From Pseudomonadota bacterium (GTDB lineage: Bacteria; Desulfobacterota; Desulfobulbia; Desulfobulbales; Desulfocapsaceae), in the NCBI GenBank assembly GCA_018820855.1, contig JAHJNL010000016.1, positions 1-33,149 of the forward strand: a stretch of 33,149 nucleotides of DNA. Direction: 5' to 3'. Below are positions 3,244 to 18,971 of this stretch, one piece after another. Position 1 is the stretch's first letter. Every line of letters starts with the position of its first letter. The notes under the pieces were generated by a model. That model searched no databases. It was not told the DNA's origin and saw only the letters and a program-made list of their open reading frames with translations. A program made the position numbers and the translations under genes.

Positions 3244-3285
3244 GTGGACACCATTTTCGGCTGATGGACAACTATGTGGACACCA
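3244..3285. repeat. Repeated GTGGACACCA motif, possible IS21-like end
   Basis: GTGGACACCA occurs at 3244-3253 and 3276-3285, with a related GATGGACA between them at 3263-3270. Multiple short repeats of a TGTCCAC core are typical of IS21-family termini. Only one end is visible, so the assignment is tentative. Confidence 0.35.
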
Positions 3286-3289
3286 AACA

Positions 3290-3318
3290 AATCAAGGACT
3301 TAGAAGAATATCTCCTAA
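3290..3318 (-). terminator. Hairpin downstream of tRNA-fMet
   Basis: ATCAAGGACTTAG and CTAAGTCCTTGAT form a perfect 13-bp stem around a short loop, placed 14 bases beyond the CCA end of the tRNA on its strand. The following bases on that strand (TTGTTTG) are only moderately T-rich, so it is a plausible but not textbook terminator or processing hairpin. Confidence 0.55.
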
Positions 3319-3332
3319 GTCCTTGATATATT

Positions 3333-3409
<77 letters not shown>

Positions 3410-3489
3410 TTACGTCTCCAATTATAGACTAAGGCGAGGGGATTGTCAATAGTAAATCGATTGTAGTCGGGGGCAAAAGAGAATTATTT

Positions 3490-3924
3490 TCAGGCTGTTT
3501 CAGGAAGCAGGGCCTGCAGGAGGGGGATGATATTGGTCGGCAGGGGAGTCAATTTTCCTTTACGGTTGATGGAAGCATGGAGGGTATGGCCCTTGGCCAG
3601 AAGCAGCTCTTTGCCAGTTGCACTCTCCTTTCGCAGAATTTTGTATGTGAATTTGCAGGTGATTTTTTGGAGTTCACTGAGCCGGGTTTCTATGATGAGC
3701 AGGTCATCATAGCGGGCCGGGGCCTTAAAGCGGGTGTAGCATTCGATAACCGGGAAGAGTAAGCCGAGCTCTTCTATCTCTCGGTAGGAACAGACGTTTT
3801 CCCGCATGAGTTCGGTGCGTCCGATTTCAAAAAAACGGAGGTAGTTGGCATTATATACAACTGCTGCCGCATCGGTATCTCCATAGAGTACCCGGTAATG
3901 GCAACGATGGCTTTTATCTTCCAC
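3490..3924 (-). CDS. ybgC: YbgC/FadM-type acyl-CoA thioesterase (hotdog fold)
   Basis: At 144 residues it is the normal length for a single hotdog-domain thioesterase. The motif YGDTDAAAVVYNANYLRFFE (residues 14-33) is the active-site block of the 4-hydroxybenzoyl-CoA thioesterase/YbgC family, with catalytic Asp18 at the same position as in E. coli YbgC. The family His that follows VVY is Asn25 here, a substitution I believe is common among deltaproteobacterial members. The start is GTG (VEDKSH), with AAGG about ten bases upstream. It would hydrolyse small or medium acyl-CoAs in the cytoplasm; the real substrate cannot be read from sequence. It lies downstream of hom/apgM on the same strand but with a gap of about 140 bases. 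Confidence 0.85.
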   Translation of the reverse strand: MEDKSHRCHYRVLYGDTDAAAVVYNANYLRFFEIGRTELMRENVCSYREIEELGLLFPVIECYTRFKAPARYDDLLIIETRLSELQKITCKFTYKILRKESATGKELLLAKGHTLHASINRKGKLTPLPTNIIPLLQALLPETA

Positions 3925-11664: not shown

Positions 11665-14600
11665 TCAGCTTCCCCGGATCAAATCCAGTAGATCTTCACT
11701 GCTCATTTTGGCACTCATGTCAGATCCTTCCAGAAGGCTTCCAGCCAAGTCTCGTTTTTCCTGATGTAATTTGACAATTTTTTCTTCAATGGTGTTTTTG
11801 CAGACAAGCCTGTAGATAGTGACCGGTCGGGTCTGGCCGATACGATGGGCTCGATCCGAGGCCTGATCTTCAATGGCAGGGTTCCACCAGGGATCCATGT
11901 GCAGGACATAGTCGGCAGCAGTGAGATTGAGGCCGAGCCCTCCTGCTTTCAGACTGATGAGAAAGAGGTCTCCTTCGCCTGCCTGGAAAGCGTCGACTTC
12001 CTGCTTGCGTCGAACGGTGCTGGTGCTGCCGTCAAGATAACGATACTTGATGCCTTTCTTGTCAAGGTGTTCGCGGAGAATAGAAAGGTGGCCGATGAAC
12101 TGGCTAAAGACCAGGGCCTTATGGTTTCCACCGAGCAGCTCGTCTACCACTGAAGCAAAGACCTTGAGCTTGGAACTGGGAATATTCGTGTCCTGAGCAA
12201 TAAGTCTGGGATTACAGCAGGCCTGACGCAGTTTCATGATTTCGGTTAGGATCTGGAGATGCCGGGCCTTTTTTTCCCTGCTGTTTTCCAAAACCTCTAT
12301 GGCGTTCTGCCTCAGAGCTTCATAAAAGATGATCTCCTGTTCGCTCAATTCTACGTCGAGGGTGATCTCGGTGCGCGGTGGCAGTTCTTCCAGGACTTCG
12401 GACTTGATCCGGCGAAGGATAAAGGGGCGGATAAGTTTTTTCAGTTTGAGGCGCGCCTCACGGTTGTGGTAGCGCTCAATGGGAATAGCGAAACGCTCGT
12501 TGAAACGGTTAAGACTCCCAAGAAGACCCGGGTTTATGAAGTGGAAAAGATTCCACAGTTCTCCAAGGTGATTTTCCACAGGAGTGCCGGTGGTGAGCAG
12601 TTTGAAGTGGGCCTGGAGGGCCATGGCTGCTTTAGAACGTTTGGTCGCTGCATTCTTGATGGCCTGAGCTTCGTCCAGGATAACAGTTTGCCATTTGACA
12701 GCGGCGAGCAGGTCATTCTCTTGCTGGAGCAGGGTGTAAGTGGTGATCAGTAGATCGTATTTTCCCAGATCGCGGATAGTCTGCGCCCTGTCTTTTCCGG
12801 TAAGGGTAATGATGTTAAGTGTTGGGGTGAAGCGATTTGCTTCCGTCTGCCAGTTGTTCGAGACAGAGGTGGGGGCAACGACCAGCGAAGGCCCGTCAGA
12901 GGCCAGAGACAGGACGATGCCCAGAGACTGGATTGTCTTTCCCAATCCCATGTCATCGGCAAGGCAGCCGCCTACACCCCAGTAGGCAAGACGAGAGAGC
13001 CAGTTGTAGCCTTCGATCTGATAATCACGCAATTCGGCCTGGAGAGTTGACGGTAGCTGCGGAATAAAGGTTTGGCTTTCATGGATGTTTCGGATCTGAT
13101 TTTTCCAGCCATCGTCTACTGAGGACTGGGCTTGGTTAACCAGTTCTTCCAGGGGGATGGCTGCGAGACGATGGATGAGTAGTTCCTGGTCGTCTTCTCC
13201 TCCATACCCTTCAGCAAACAGGTTGATCTCCTCTAACTTCTTTTTGAATTCCTGAGTCAGAGCGAGAAACTGTCCTTCTCCTATCTGGATGAACCGTCCG
13301 TGGGCAGTCTTGACCTTGGTAAGAAGTTCCCTCAGTTCGATAACCGTGTCCTGGTCAACCCTGAGTTCACCTGAAAGTGCAAACCAGTTCTGCTGATTCG
13401 TTCGTACCTTCAGGTTGAGGTTTTTTAACGAAGCCTGATGGCTGATGGTCAGTTTCTCTCCCTCGGGCCATTCAATTATTACCTGATCTTGAATGTTCTG
13501 CAGTTCCTGCAGGGCATGGAGGCAATCATCAGGGTCTTGTAAGTGCCACTCTCTATCATTTTCCTGTTCGAGATCAATGGCCAAGTCTAGGATAGGGCAT
13601 GATTCTTCAATCTCCCGTGCCTTTTTCTCTTCCAGAGCCAGGTTGCGTCGGGTCTGCAGGCGGCGGCCACGTACCTCAGCCATGATGTTCTCGACTCCCT
13701 GGCCGGGTTTGAGGTAATGGCCTCCTTCGGCAAAAGGCTTGACAAACATCTCCAGTCTAAAGCCAGTGCCGTAAGGGAGCAGGTGCATATAGATGGATGG
13801 ATCGGCCTCTACAAATTCTATATTTCCTTCTGTTCCGGTTGAAGCATCGGCAGCGATGGCTGAGTGTACGGTCATAAAGGAAGAAATATTGCCGATGGCG
13901 GTCAGGACCTGATCACTGGCCTCAATGGGTACTATGAGACCATTTTCACCGGTGATTTGGGCAATTCTTCTATGATTGTCATTGATTTCAATAATTTTAT
14001 AACGGGTGGGTGTTTCGTGAAAAACCGTGATGTTGTCATCTGAAATCTGTTGGGAAAAACGGATCTGGAGGTGGGAACCCCTTTCTTCAACCAGTAGTTC
14101 CGGTTCTCCGCTGATAAATTCCACTGGGGTTACCGGGGATTTTGCCAGAAAGAGCAGAGGGTGGTTGATCATTGCCGGCAATGCCTTTTCCATATCAAAG
14201 GAATAACTGACACCGTGGGTCTCTGGGTTTATCTTTTTTTGAATGGCTGTAGCAATCTTTCTGTCCTGGATTGTCAGGTATGCAAGTTTACCGGAATAGA
14301 GGCGGGAAAGAGATATGGGTCTGCCTTTACTCCAGCTACCGGAGGGATTCCGTTTCTGCTCTTTAGGGCTGATTTGCATCTTTCCCTTTCTGTCATCCAC
14401 CATCCAGATAAGTCGTACACCCTGGGAAGGGTTATGTTCCTGTGGAGAAGATGTGACCTGGATCAGGGCCTGGAGGTTTCGTTTCCATGATTCTTCGGAT
14501 TTGAGAACATTGATAAGGGGGAAAAGTCCGGTTTGCTCCTGGAGACGAGAGACGATCTCATTATTTTTTTCTGTATCGTGACCGGTTCCGGCCAAGATAG

Positions 14601-15837
14601 CTGCAAGGTTGAGTGTAAAGAAGTGAAAATCATTGGAAAGGGATTGCTGATAAAGGGTTTCTACCCGTTCTTTGACATCTGGCTGGAGGCTGGAATTGAG
14701 CCAATACTGGCAAAGGGCCGTGACAAGGATGGTCAGACTGTGAGGTTCCTCATCTTTATGAAAGCCCATCTCTTCGCCGGGAAGAGAGTTGTTAGATCTA
14801 GCCTGCAGGAAGGCTGCGAATACCTGGTACCCTCTCTCTTCAATGCTTCCCGGGAACAGGGTCAAGGCAATGGCGATCTGCTGGGCAACCTGTTGTTCCT
14901 GGTCCACTCGGTCTGCCTGAAGGCTGGAAAGGGCATGAAGAAGACCTGTTGGACCGAAGAAAGCGGCGTTTCTGTTTCCGCTCAAGTCGCAAAGAAAATC
15001 AAGGTCTTTTTCAAATAAGTCTTGGGTGTCGTCACGGTTACCGGAGAGGAAGGCGAGAGAACCAAGAGCTCCGGTTCCGGAAAAAGCATCGCTGTTTTCG
15101 GCCACCAGTTTTTCTGCCTCTTCGAGTCTGCCTCTGAAAAGCAACTGGGTGAAAAGGAGGCGCTTGAAGGGGACTATCTCGTCGCTGTTCGGTCCCTCAA
15201 GGCCTGTTTCCTCCTGAAGATAGGTAAGGATCTCTGAATAACTGTGAAGTATGGACAGGCCATGGCGGAAAATAGTATCCAATAGGAAAAATTGAAAAGA
15301 TGGCGCCAGGCTTCTGAACCAGATTGGATCAAAGGGTGTTGTCGCTACCTGAACTGTAGGCGGTAAAGGGGATAGGATGTCGCGGCATTGGCCAGACAGG
15401 AATTCAAGGGCACTGTCAATGAGATCAAAGTCCTGGGTGTAAATGCCAATGCGCAACTCCCGCATGGCACGCCAGCAACGGGTAGTCCATTTGCCGTAGT
15501 AGTAGGAGACTGGGGCTTCATCTCGGATGACCTTGGCGAAAACGTCAAATTGTCCGTTCTGTACAGCCATGCGGCTCAGGGTTTCCACAAGATCCGGTGG
15601 GCACTGATGGTTGTCTGTAAGGAGGCCAATCTGCCGGAATTTAGAAAAATAATGATTCAGATTGGCGGCAGTTGGGCGATTCCCACGTGGGCTGCGGATA
15701 TCGAGATCTCGCAAGCAGTTGACGATAAGAGTATTGTGGGCAGGTTCGTAAATAACTGAGAGAAATTGGAGAAGTGTCTGCTCAAAGGGAGTGAGTTTAT
15801 CGTATTGCTGAAGTAACTTGTCGATCGAGTCTGGCAT
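11665..15837 (-). CDS. Large SNF2-family ATPase (Swi2/Snf2, superfamily 2) with a 900-residue N-terminal region
   Basis: A 1390-residue protein. Its last 460 or so residues form a complete SNF2 motor: LRDYQIEGYNWLSRL (Q-motif region), DDMGLGKT Walker A near residue 960, APTSVSNNW (Ia), DEAQAIKN Walker B near 1055, LTTGTPVENHLGELW (III), KALVFSQF (IV), ISLKAGGLGLNLTAADYVLHMD (V) and DRAHRIGQTRPV (VI). The first 900 residues are soluble. They begin with a winged-helix-like stretch, continue as helical-repeat-like sequence and then carry a beta-rich section before the motor; I recognise no named domain in them. Bacterial SNF2 proteins of this form (RapA/HepA relatives) are thought to remodel DNA-protein or transcription complexes. 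The gene ends ten bases from the convergent CULT gene. No methylase or nuclease partner is adjacent, so a phage-defence role is not supported by context. Confidence 0.92.
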   Translation of the reverse strand: MPDSIDKLLQQYDKLTPFEQTLLQFLSVIYEPAHNTLIVNCLRDLDIRSPRGNRPTAANLNHYFSKFRQIGLLTDNHQCPPDLVETLSRMAVQNGQFDVFAKVIRDEAPVSYYYGKWTTRCWRAMRELRIGIYTQDFDLIDSALEFLSGQCRDILSPLPPTVQVATTPFDPIWFRSLAPSFQFFLLDTIFRHGLSILHSYSEILTYLQEETGLEGPNSDEIVPFKRLLFTQLLFRGRLEEAEKLVAENSDAFSGTGALGSLAFLSGNRDDTQDLFEKDLDFLCDLSGNRNAAFFGPTGLLHALSSLQADRVDQEQQVAQQIAIALTLFPGSIEERGYQVFAAFLQARSNNSLPGEEMGFHKDEEPHSLTILVTALCQYWLNSSLQPDVKERVETLYQQSLSNDFHFFTLNLAAILAGTGHDTEKNNEIVSRLQEQTGLFPLINVLKSEESWKRNLQALIQVTSSPQEHNPSQGVRLIWMVDDRKGKMQISPKEQKRNPSGSWSKGRPISLSRLYSGKLAYLTIQDRKIATAIQKKINPETHGVSYSFDMEKALPAMINHPLLFLAKSPVTPVEFISGEPELLVEERGSHLQIRFSQQISDDNITVFHETPTRYKIIEINDNHRRIAQITGENGLIVPIEASDQVLTAIGNISSFMTVHSAIAADASTGTEGNIEFVEADPSIYMHLLPYGTGFRLEMFVKPFAEGGHYLKPGQGVENIMAEVRGRRLQTRRNLALEEKKAREIEESCPILDLAIDLEQENDREWHLQDPDDCLHALQELQNIQDQVIIEWPEGEKLTISHQASLKNLNLKVRTNQQNWFALSGELRVDQDTVIELRELLTKVKTAHGRFIQIGEGQFLALTQEFKKKLEEINLFAEGYGGEDDQELLIHRLAAIPLEELVNQAQSSVDDGWKNQIRNIHESQTFIPQLPSTLQAELRDYQIEGYNWLSRLAYWGVGGCLADDMGLGKTIQSLGIVLSLASDGPSLVVAPTSVSNNWQTEANRFTPTLNIITLTGKDRAQTIRDLGKYDLLITTYTLLQQENDLLAAVKWQTVILDEAQAIKNAATKRSKAAMALQAHFKLLTTGTPVENHLGELWNLFHFINPGLLGSLNRFNERFAIPIERYHNREARLKLKKLIRPFILRRIKSEVLEELPPRTEITLDVELSEQEIIFYEALRQNAIEVLENSREKKARHLQILTEIMKLRQACCNPRLIAQDTNIPSSKLKVFASVVDELLGGNHKALVFSQFIGHLSILREHLDKKGIKYRYLDGSTSTVRRKQEVDAFQAGEGDLFLISLKAGGLGLNLTAADYVLHMDPWWNPAIEDQASDRAHRIGQTRPVTIYRLVCKNTIEEKIVKLHQEKRDLAGSLLEGSDMSAKMSSEDLLDLIRGS

Positions 15838-16170
15838 AGTATCTACTTAGTTTTACACCTCTTAAAGGGGTACTGAAAAGAGTCCCGCTACGCTCGGTGC
15901 GGAATATAACGGGGCCAAAACGATCTATTATATCATGTCTGGCCAAGAAATGTATGAAAAAGAGCATACTATCCGGAAAAGAATTCATTGTCTCTGGCTA
16001 TGAGCCTCTGTCTAAAACAATAAAAGAGCATTGTTCGAGAAAAAGAATTTAATGTGTCAAATGTGAAAGTGTTGTTGCCATATTGTCTCAATTGCTTATA
16101 GAATGAATGGCATGATGACACAAATGGGAAAATAAATTGACATGTTTGGAATAACTATTGGAAGGGAATA
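15838..16170. promoter_or_regulatory. Divergent intergenic region, SNF2 / recombinase-like gene
   Basis: About 330 bases with no convincing reading frame. It must carry the divergent promoters. TTGACA at 16137-16142 is the only clear -35-like hexamer, but I see no good -10 at the right distance. No repeats stand out. Confidence 0.5.
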
Positions 16171-16869
16171 ATGACTACTATCGGCTATGTCTTTCTGGAT
16201 GTAACTCGTGATGCTCTGGTGCCGCTTATGCAACAGCGTCAGGTGATTGAGGAATATGCAGGAGGGCTGGGGTTGTCTTGTGATGAACTTCTTGTGGAGC
16301 AGTCATATTCATCGACAGTGCCACTGCTGGAAAGAGATGAAGGAAAAAGGCTGTTGAATAATGTTCAGGAAGGTGACACCATTTTGGTGATGAAGGCAGA
16401 ATGGGTCTTGGGAAGCCCAAAAGCGGCCCTTGGACTTCTGGATATTCTTAAAAGAAAAGGAGTGGCTCTTTTTTGTCTGGATCTTGATGGAAATATTTCC
16501 AGGCAGACTGAAAGAAAGCTGATTGTCTCAGAGGGAATAGCACCTCTGGTGTATAAGCTCTGTCAGGCCTTGTCACTTGGGGAAAGTGGAGATCATGGTG
16601 CTGCTATTCGTGCAGCTAAGGCACTCAAAAAAAAGGAAGGGAAATATATGGGTGGGCCTATTCCCTTTGGTTGGATAGTCAATGAAGAGGGCAGGTTGCA
16701 GAAGGACTCTGAACAGCAGGAGCTTATTGTCGAAATGATAAGGCTTAAGGAGGATCGCTGGTCATATCGTGATATCGCAAGGAAATTCCATGAGAAATAT
16801 GACCTGAAACTTTCACACGAGGGCATACGGCGTATTTTGCTGAAGACGCAGAAAAAAAAGAAAAAATAA
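16171..16869 (+). CDS. Serine-recombinase-like protein lacking all catalytic residues
   Basis: The 232-residue protein has a resolvase/invertase-like N-domain (1-125) and a Recombinase-type DNA-binding domain (about 144-222: AAKALKKKEGKYMGGPIPFGW and WSYRDIARKFHEKYDLKLSHEGIRRIL), ending in a lysine tail. Aligned to gamma-delta resolvase the start is MTTIGYVFLD. The nucleophile Ser10 is Asp10 and Arg8 is Phe8. The KLDRLGR block has become KAEWVLG, so Arg68 and Arg71 are lost as well. It cannot cut DNA by the known serine-recombinase chemistry. The frame is intact, begins with a strong GGAAGGGAATA ribosome site and has ordinary codon use, so it looks maintained rather than decaying. A DNA-binding regulator or architectural role is inferred. 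No recombination sites or mobile cargo are seen around it. Confidence 0.8.
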   Translation: MTTIGYVFLDVTRDALVPLMQQRQVIEEYAGGLGLSCDELLVEQSYSSTVPLLERDEGKRLLNNVQEGDTILVMKAEWVLGSPKAALGLLDILKRKGVALFCLDLDGNISRQTERKLIVSEGIAPLVYKLCQALSLGESGDHGAAIRAAKALKKKEGKYMGGPIPFGWIVNEEGRLQKDSEQQELIVEMIRLKEDRWSYRDIARKFHEKYDLKLSHEGIRRILLKTQKKKKK

Positions 16870-17072: not shown

Positions 17073-18971
17073 TTATAGATTCTTGTTGCTGTATATCGAA
17101 GCATTTTTTTCCTGGTGCCGTAACCAGGCGATAAGGAGACGGTCCTGCTTGGTGCTGAGAATTTCGGTTCGGTATCGCTCCTTTTCTTCGGCTGTCAACG
17201 TTGCAGGATCCGGGAGGGTCCTTCCTTTAAATTGGTAGAGAAAGAGATCGGTTCCTACTGTTGCCGCTTCGTCAGGCAGTGGGCTGTCGCTGCTCAAGCT
17301 AAAGGTTTTCTGAAGTAAGGCGGAAGGGAAGCCGTTGGTTTCGGGCCCTGTGGAATTTCTGAGAAGGGTTGCCTCTTTGGTCTCAAGTCCGTGGGTCTTG
17401 CCAGCTTCGGAAAATGAGGTTCCTGATTTGAGTGCAGCCAGGAGTTCTTTACCCTTTTCAATAGCCAGACTTTTTGCTTGTTCAGTGATATAGTCTTCAG
17501 TTACTTTTGTTCGTACGCTCTCCAATTCAGGAATAGTGGGTTCCTCTATTGCCTCGGCATAAAGAATAGAGTAGCCATCAGGGGATTCGAGAAGTGAACT
17601 GAGTTCTCCGCTTTTCAATGAAAATGCAGTGTCTTGAATGATGGGCGACTTGTCCAGCTTCTCAGGCAGGGCTGAACGGGAGAAGTAATCCGTTTCGAGA
17701 ATGATGGCATCGGGGTTGAGTCGAGCATATTCCTGCAGGCTTCCTGCTGCAATAATCCCTTCATAGGCGGCATTGGCCTTTTGGAAGACAGCAGGCCGGG
17801 CCAGACTGCTTTTGATTTCTTTTAGAAGTGCTTCACGTACTTCTGCCAACGGTTGGGTCGTCGCCGGCAGGATCTTTTCCAGAAGAATTACATGGTAACC
17901 AAATCTGGTTTTGACGACTTCGCTGATCTCTCCCTCTTGCATTGAGAAAACTGCATCGTCAAAGGGTTTAACCATCTGACCTTTGCTGAAATTTCCAAGA
18001 TCGCCGCCGGTATCCTTTGTCGGTCCCTCGGAAAAGGTTCGTGCAAGTTCGGTGAAATCTTCTCCGGCAATTGCCTTAGCCCGTACTTCCTCTGCCTTTG
18101 CCAACTGAGTCGTAAGTGTCTCTGCTGAGCTGTTTTCATCGGCTTTCAGCAGAATATGTCTTGCATGACGTTTCTCAGGTATTTGGTAACGATCAAGGTT
18201 CTCTTGGTACCTGCTTTCTATCTGCTCGTCGCTGACAGTGAGATTTTCGGTCTCATTGTCATAGGAAAATGAGAGAAATTTGAGTTTGATGCGGGGGGCG
18301 GTTTTATAAGCCTCTTTGTTTTGGTCAAACCAGGCAAGAATCTTTTCTTCTTCAACATTCACCTTGGCCTGAAAATCGGATGGGCTGATTTTGGTAAAGA
18401 GGATCGAAATGCTTTCTTTGTCCTGCTGAAATCTGTCAAGGATTTCAGTGTCGGAAACTATGGCGGCGAATCCCCCTATTGAGGCGACAGCTTTGCCCGA
18501 GAGCATGTCGTACCGCATGTTTGCCTCAAATGTGTGAGGTGTGAGGCGGTTGTTTTTAAGTGTGGATTTGTATTTTTCTATATTGAAAAAGTTATTTTCC
18601 TGAAACTGAACCATTCCCTGGATGCGTCGCTGTACCTCATCGGCTGAGGCCATTAGTCCCATAGCAGTGGCCCCCTGGCGAAGTAATGATCCCTGAATTA
18701 GTTGATTCTTGACCTGTTGACTGAGGCCAAGGTTCTGCAACAGTTCCTCGGGAACTGACCCACCGAATTGCTGGCGATAATTAGAGAGGAGCTGGTCGTA
18801 GACCTTTTGATAGTCCTGAAAACTGATTTCTTCGTCATTGACGACAATGGCGGCTTCCCGGTTGCTCATCATATTGGTGCCGACTCCCCAGAAGATAAAA
18901 ACAAGAGCGATAACCAGGACAATTGCCTGGATGAAGGTTGACTGGGCTTTGTCACGAAAGATTTGCAGCAT
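17073..18971 (-). CDS. ppiD: PpiD-type membrane-anchored periplasmic chaperone / peptidyl-prolyl isomerase
   Basis: The 632-residue protein has a short cytoplasmic N-terminus and one transmembrane anchor (about 13-30, IQAIVLVIALVFIFWGVG). A SurA_N-like chaperone region follows (about 35-180), including the VNDEEISFQDYQKVYDQL start typical of PpiD/SurA. One parvulin domain lies at about 268-370 (RHARHILLKA, FTELARTFSEGPTKDTGGDLG, FDDAVFSMQEGEIS, FGYHVILLEKI). The C-terminal region resembles a second, degenerate rotamase-like module. PpiD helps secreted proteins fold as they leave SecYEG. It stands alone here. Length matches the family and the ATG is the natural start. Confidence 0.92.
   Translation of the reverse strand: MLQIFRDKAQSTFIQAIVLVIALVFIFWGVGTNMMSNREAAIVVNDEEISFQDYQKVYDQLLSNYRQQFGGSVPEELLQNLGLSQQVKNQLIQGSLLRQGATAMGLMASADEVQRRIQGMVQFQENNFFNIEKYKSTLKNNRLTPHTFEANMRYDMLSGKAVASIGGFAAIVSDTEILDRFQQDKESISILFTKISPSDFQAKVNVEEEKILAWFDQNKEAYKTAPRIKLKFLSFSYDNETENLTVSDEQIESRYQENLDRYQIPEKRHARHILLKADENSSAETLTTQLAKAEEVRAKAIAGEDFTELARTFSEGPTKDTGGDLGNFSKGQMVKPFDDAVFSMQEGEISEVVKTRFGYHVILLEKILPATTQPLAEVREALLKEIKSSLARPAVFQKANAAYEGIIAAGSLQEYARLNPDAIILETDYFSRSALPEKLDKSPIIQDTAFSLKSGELSSLLESPDGYSILYAEAIEEPTIPELESVRTKVTEDYITEQAKSLAIEKGKELLAALKSGTSFSEAGKTHGLETKEATLLRNSTGPETNGFPSALLQKTFSLSSDSPLPDEAATVGTDLFLYQFKGRTLPDPATLTAEEKERYRTEILSTKQDRLLIAWLRHQEKNASIYSNKNL

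Follow-up and report, generated by a model that had tools for sequence, protein, structure and literature searches.

A predicted catalysis-deficient serine recombinase of the Desulfocapsaceae, probably kept as a DNA-binding autorepressor at a palindrome pair

What keeps a serine recombinase gene in a genome once the residues for recombination are gone? The question is raised by a gene, here called SR, in a stretch of 33,149 bp (contig JAHJNL010000016.1; the window) from a member of the Desulfocapsaceae. The initial annotation had described an intact but catalytically dead recombinase and suggested its reuse as a regulator or nucleoid protein; the analysis reported here confirms that observation in part and partly supports its interpretation. 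SR is probably a former small serine resolvase that has lost recombination and is kept as a DNA-binding autorepressor acting on a pair of palindromes.

The features of the locus are listed in Table 1. The claim of an uninterrupted frame holds: a single frame of 232 aa starts with ATG and is preceded by the purine-rich leader GGAAGGGAATA. The SNF2 and PpiD identities given for the neighbors, and the lack of mobile-element context, hold as well, with no mobile-element genes beside SR. A search of the window’s genome with the SR protein returned a single match, its own locus. The same genome carries a 493-aa large serine recombinase (G000:C7; L142:708-2189), and near it lies a truncated copy of the 5′ portion of that gene (3284-3730).

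Table 1. Features of the SR locus (positions in the window).
Feature	Position	Strand	Evidence
SR, predicted catalytically dead serine recombinase, 232 aa	16171..16869	+	ORF, Pfam, family alignment
SR N-terminal resolvase-fold domain (~residues 1-105), without R8, S10, R68, R71; E43 and R55 kept	16171..16485	+	
SR C-terminal putative DNA-binding part (residues 146-232), Bxb1 recombinase-domain-like	16606..16866	+	predicted fold
SNF2-type helicase, divergent neighbor	11665..15837	-	
PpiD-like peptidyl-prolyl isomerase, convergent neighbor	17073..18971	-	
Candidate operator palindrome 1 (TTGCCATATTGTCTC), overlaps -35 hexamer TTGCCA	16075..16089	.	
Candidate operator palindrome 2 (ATGGCATGATGACAC), 32 bp from palindrome 1, 49 nt before ATG	16107..16121	.	
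Sigma-70-like SR promoter: TTGCCA, 18 nt, TAGAAT (10/12)	16075..16104	+	promoter scan

Both sequence and predicted structure place SR in the serine recombinase superfamily. Pfam Resolvase (PF00239) scores 34.1 bits, above its cut-off of 23.3, and HTH_32 on the C-terminal part scores 33.2 bits, slightly below its cut-off of 33.7. The AlphaFold model, made with 16 sequences in the alignment, has a mean pLDDT of 77.4 and a pTM of 0.49, the helix E region (parts of 112–143) being poorly modeled. It has the resolvase fold, as judged by its matches to 3bvp of TP901-1, with Z 14.9 and an rmsd of 2.8 over 117, to 3pkz of Sin, with Z 13.4 and an rmsd of 2.0 over 95, and to γδ resolvase 1gdt (Foldseek E 8e-7). 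Residues 146–232 resemble the Bxb1 recombinase domain, with Z 8.0 and an rmsd of 2.4 over 86. The initial annotation’s view that both domains are preserved therefore stands for the N-domain, by PF00239 and by fold; its “Recombinase” module is missing by sequence, PF07508 being absent among SR’s Pfam matches at E ≤ 1, and has its counterpart in a resemblance of predicted fold to Bxb1. Structural matches to HflX/GTPBP6 and other non-recombinase proteins were set aside as a common arrangement.

Residue numbering was fixed by an intact plasmid relative aligned to γδ resolvase 1gdt. Alignment to intact plasmid resolvases agrees with the replacements first read from the window, namely F8 for R8, D10 for S10, W78 for R68 and G81 for R71; D67 is replaced by Glu (E77). 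The statement that every catalytic residue is lost proved too strong, because the equivalents of R45 (R55) and D36 (as Glu, E43) are kept, both invariant in the 41 rows of an alignment that counts duplicates. Among 39 distinct family sequences (L061 and L063 omitted as duplicates of G076 and G060; G033, G034 and three sister-family copies also outside the set), position 8 holds F, Y, L or V and never R (0/39); at position 10, 28 sequences have D or A and two have Ser. The place of R68 is aromatic throughout (39/39; W in 36, F in two, Y in one), and that of R71 holds G, S, A or C, with R in 0/39. This aromatic residue at 78 and H142 (36/39) are specific to the family. The residue set of an active serine recombinase (S10, R8, R68, R71) is thus lacking in the SR family, and as the best explanation of the missing residues SR is predicted to have no DNA cleavage or recombination activity. 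The three sister-family copies, read by eye, are also without R8, S10, R68 and R71 and keep the E and the R; in place of R68 they have M, F and A. Because these copies share the losses, the losses are ancestral to the sampled members and would predate the divergence of the sampled Desulfocapsaceae and a sister family of the same order.

Profile searches found SR in 41 of 93 Desulfocapsaceae genomes (24 of the 54 good ones) and, among 257 genomes of the order, in three further genomes, all of one sister family. The 39 distinct family sequences are unbroken or cut by a contig end only (G013, G019 and G079). In a phylum sample of 345 genomes the remaining matches are remote (E no better than 2.6e-14), and the five that were translated all still have an RVS motif together with KLDR, RLDR or KRDR. 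A scan of genome contigs with the single SR protein gave no match; an alignment-based search of such contigs gave 15 named loci, labeled Desulfocapsa, Desulfopila or Desulfofustis, or as Desulfobulbaceae or Deltaproteobacteria bins. Desulfocapsa and Desulfofustis belong to the Desulfocapsaceae, order Desulfobulbales. The window itself probably comes from a Desulfocapsa, since genomes of its genus match named contigs. The dead family forms one clade against four intact homologues (support 100/100). Close homologues with an intact Ser, which the initial annotation had named as counter-evidence to reuse, were looked for; the nearest in the searched collections are at most 34% identical and lie on Pseudomonadota plasmids. 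Pairwise Nei–Gojobori dN/dS is 0.08–0.23 across the nine least diverged pairs (0.104 overall for G009/G010), indicating purifying selection, with 0.10–0.40 for the N-domain and 0.04–0.29 for the C-terminal part; dS exceeds 1.2 in three of the nine, and more distant pairs, whose dN/dS reaches 0.48, were given no weight because they approach saturation. The losses are fixed across the sampled orthologues, which are kept across genera, and this takes the observation beyond chance.

The gene order is conserved too, so that homologues with the same losses lie in syntenic positions, as the initial annotation had proposed to check. SR adjoins SNF2 and/or ppiD in 34 of the 39 family copies; in 33 it lies beside SNF2, the opposite flank being occupied by PpiD in 29 and cut off by the contig end in four, and the 34th (G056) has PpiD on one side and a contig end on the SNF2 side. 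The five copies located elsewhere form one clade (99/98) and occupy four different places. In this Desulfocapsa clade SR stands alone beside unrelated genes (L109, L050, L051/L049 and L052). In the sister family, the order SNF2–SR–PpiD is the same in G508 and in G465, where SR is truncated; in G522 neither neighbor is seen, and SR is full-length in G508 and G522. Eighteen SNF2-side regions were drawn from genomes without SR at that place, and in 14 of these SNF2 lies directly next to PpiD with no SR match (E 1e-4); since G008 and G015 carry SR elsewhere, 12 SR-less genomes remain. The other four comprise an SR remnant (G084), two regions that end too early and one without PpiD (G028). Frameshifts in sister genomes had been named as a sign of simple decay, and some of these genomes do show breakdown: SR survives as a remnant in G011 and G084, is interrupted by a stop in G034 and by a frame break in G033, and leaves a weak DNA trace (66% over 73 bp) in G006. 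The window’s closest relatives by SNF2 (G006, G018 and G011; 87–91%) have lost or broken SR. Yet 39 family copies are unbroken or cut by contig ends only. From the losses and breaks on the one hand and these copies on the other it follows that SR is under selection where retained, yet dispensable.

Upstream of many SR copies lies an operator-like array of two 15-bp palindromes TTGNCANNNTGNCAA, 32 bp apart, over the promoter. The promoter scan of the window found the -35 inside palindrome 1 and the -10 in the spacer independently of the palindromes; promoter-type sites occur in the region at chance frequency (3 against 2.4 in shuffles), so that the hit is weak taken alone. TTGACA is the sigma-70 -35 box, and half of the motif is inflated because of this coincidence. 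Motif and spacing were derived from the same data on which they were first scored. With an array called strong at 15/20 or more at spacing 32, 14 of 38 upstream regions (G016, with 2 nt upstream, omitted) are strong, the window included; each other spacing between 15 and 59 brings 9 regions or fewer to this score. The other 24 of the 38 score below 15, so that most upstream regions have no array, a diverged one or one that escaped the scan. In 13 of the 38, none of 300 dinucleotide shuffles reaches the pair score. The window’s own pair is degenerate: it reaches 16/20, and its score of 9.5 with the held-out matrix stays under the highest shuffle value (11.1).

For cross-validation, weight matrices were trained on one group of SR copies and scored on the other. 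The matrix from six other-genus copies gave 18.5 for G002, 17.1 for G012, 16.0 for G007, 14.9 for G010, 13.7 for G013 and 7.1 for G008 besides the window’s score, as well as 17.4 for G017 at an unusual distance. Simple shuffles (n = 190) reached 8.4 at the 99th percentile and 11.1 at most, and the 16 gap controls, longer on average than the 250-nt upstream regions, stayed at or below 4.8 except for G084 (10.2), the holder of an SR remnant. The reverse matrix gave 22.9 for G075, 22.2 for G056, 20.2 for G058, 19.9 for G057, 17.5 for G032, 13.9 for G074 and 7.0 for G073, with gaps at or below 9.0 and shuffles at or below 13.2. The median held-out region is low both ways (1.6 and 3.4), a clear array being limited to part of the family. 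A sequence-free test for palindrome pairs, run without the near copies G009, G061 and G062, again has its peak at 32 (z 2.9; 65 spacings, 35 sequences), with a score of 8.00, while none of 200 shuffles goes beyond 7.69. Of seven palindrome geometries, five put the peak at 32 or 33, and the other two at 24 and 47.

The sister-family copy of G508, found later, scores 14/20 at the preset spacing of 32 (p 0.023). At step 31, tried after the sequence was seen, it carries TTGACAAAAAGGCAA and TTGTCACAATGCCAA (19/20), a score reached by 0 of 2000 shuffles with steps 31–33 allowed. The pair was not found upstream of SR in the sister-family genomes G522 and G465. Three palindromes in step precede SR in G057. 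Upstream DNA is available for four relocated copies. Of these, G008 alone shows a fair pair where it normally lies (15/20, p 0.007), its matrix score being within the shuffle range; the best site of G017 is 175 nt upstream, and G004 and G015 show no pair.

Fifteen genomes were searched whole for the pair, allowing up to three mismatches. It was found at the SR promoter in nine, and four gave no match; the pairs of the window and G008 exceed this mismatch limit. Of six other places in the 15 genomes, five are covered by frames and one is a tandem repeat, judged by its sequence. Outside the SR promoter the pair is thus almost lacking, which ties it to the SR gene rather than to a general regulator. 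For the same reason the nucleoid-protein part of the suggested reuse was rejected as first choice, and the regulator part gains from the conserved orthologues, the purifying selection and the operator-like pair. Exact single palindromes outside SR promoters number eight in eight genomes; seven lie within frames of at least 70 aa and the eighth is a contig-end copy of another, and those of G057 and G000, covered only by short doubtful frames, may be intergenic. Single palindromes elsewhere occur at about chance frequency in most genomes searched and above control in G508 and G074. G508 has seven exact single sites against one for the reversed control: one at the SR promoter, five in frames of at least 80 aa (some probably spurious) and one CRISPR-spacer-like. 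One of these five (L149:1494-1508) lies 59 nt before a gene that by eye resembles that of the glutamate synthase small subunit, and the apparent CRISPR spacer (L150:1534-1548) contains its exact operator-type palindrome, TTGACATAGTGACAA, possibly by chance. A phage or plasmid origin of the operator was considered and set aside: one search of the operator region against plasmids and one against phages, both of low sensitivity with so short a query, gave no match, and four viral contigs with an exact pair look unrelated, with no resolvase seen around the pairs and two of them being tandem repeats. A search of phages found no SR relative, and none was confirmed in viral contigs.

These results are best accommodated if strand cleavage was lost before the sampled families diverged and sequence-specific DNA binding was kept. 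SR dimers would bind the two palindromes, about three helical turns apart on SR’s own promoter, and we infer that they cooperate and repress. Palindrome 1 would cover the -35 and palindrome 2 lie just past the -10, and with sites so placed SR binding would shut off SR transcription, leaving SR as the repressor half of the ancestral resolvase job. The model for this job is Tn3, whose res holds the resolvase promoter; at res, TnpR acts both as recombinase and as repressor of the gene that encodes it (PMC7157771). Since Tn3-type resolvases autorepress from res, the best reading is that recombination was lost and autorepression kept. A Tn3 domain with the S10A change still functions at accessory sites, according to another study (PMC9943657), which is consistent with DNA-bound roles without catalysis. 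Like Tn3 and γδ TnpR, SR has the resolvase fold, and in part of the family its gene stands beside a candidate palindromic array that would hold its promoter. It differs from them in being without R8, S10, R68 and R71 and in its candidate sites, compact palindromes of 15 bp set 32 bp apart, among which no crossover site was recognized. It also has SNF2 and PpiD rather than a transposase gene beside it.

Autorepression without other known targets does not by itself account for the purifying selection. The invariant E43 and R55 and the family aromatic at 78 allow putative ligand sensing. In an extended reading, which is possible rather than probable, a resolvase would have become a transcription factor: the res array would have shrunk to a two-site operator (three-site in G057) and the active site to a conserved E43/R55 pocket that, with the aromatic at 78, maybe senses a ligand, the gene and its operator forming a self-contained unit that persists in two families and has moved in one clade.

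Other readings of the locus deal with the same evidence less well. The linkage to the divergent SNF2 gene, seen in 33 of 39 family copies and two sister-family genomes, would follow if SR were a regulator or partner of the helicase, with autoregulation secondary. This is unlikely: 91 of the 93 family genomes have SNF2 (E ≤ 1e-200), whether SR is there or not, against 41 that have SR, and SR is located elsewhere in five genomes; the window’s pair (16075-16121) is near the SR start and ~240 bp from that of SNF2, and the SNF2-proximal sequence is ~75% conserved in G006 and G018 despite the missing SR. Somewhat less likely still is a dominant-negative or immunity protein directed at incoming elements with related resolvases or operators. 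The patchy presence and repeated loss are defense-like, the nearest intact homologues found are plasmid-borne, and the palindrome in the apparent CRISPR spacer of G508, if not there by chance, would fit; the phage and viral searches for related proteins, the insensitive operator searches and the exact-pair contigs described above, two of them tandem repeats, argue the other way.

A slowly decaying, functionless relic retained by chance is very improbable. The remnants (G011, G084), the stop (G034), the frame break (G033) and the truncated copy (G465), the 12 SR-less genomes with an inspected SNF2–PpiD gap, the position of the window’s closest SNF2 relatives among the losers and an N-domain dN/dS of up to 0.40 in one pair are what such a relic would leave, but the dN/dS in the nine least diverged pairs, the full-length frames across genera and in the sister family (G508, G522) and the retained family-specific residues (the aromatic at 78; H142 in 36 of 39) are not. 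Lowest in our ranking is that the palindromes serve another regulator of SR, whose own job differs, for example ligand binding at E43, R55 and W78. Binding of SR to the palindromes is something we infer, and the old active-site region does keep E43, R55 and the aromatic at 78, all of which suits this view; a regulator with further targets should leave other paired sites, whereas hardly any pair was found away from the SR promoter.

Other serine recombinases share parts of SR. Large serine integrases (Bxb1, phiC31) resemble it in the C-terminal fold, and the SR linker with GGPVPFG weakly matches phiC31-type integrases (E 0.001–0.003); they differ in that SR has lost catalysis and is short. They carry further C-terminal domains, for which the 232 aa of SR leave no room. 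The YneB family (NF049883) shows weak N-domain similarity, and SR, at 19.7 bits against a cut-off of 175, falls outside it. Regulators derived from mobile-element enzymes are known, such as FHY3/FAR1 in plants and TldR in bacteria. A literature search, with subscription papers mostly outside it, found no described case of a catalysis-dead serine recombinase serving as a chromosomal regulator, and none is named in the consulted part of a review on recruited mobile elements (PMC8987985). The SR family would reveal what is left of a resolvase once recombination is removed, and it offers a concrete candidate DNA site for testing.

Among small plasmid resolvases, those from Gluconobacter oxydans, from Methylobacterium bullatum and from a Vibrio plasmid are colinear with SR over its full length, the Gluconobacter protein being 34% identical to SR over 96% of the query. 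They differ from SR in their intact RVS and KLDRxFR motifs, their location on plasmids and ~9 fewer residues before helix E. The inspected plasmid resolvase genes are also preceded by candidate inverted repeats, unrelated in sequence to the SR palindromes. The catalytically intact Vibrio plasmid resolvase has two upstream palindromes of the type TTACACAAATTGTGT, 71 bp apart (L078:3816-3914).
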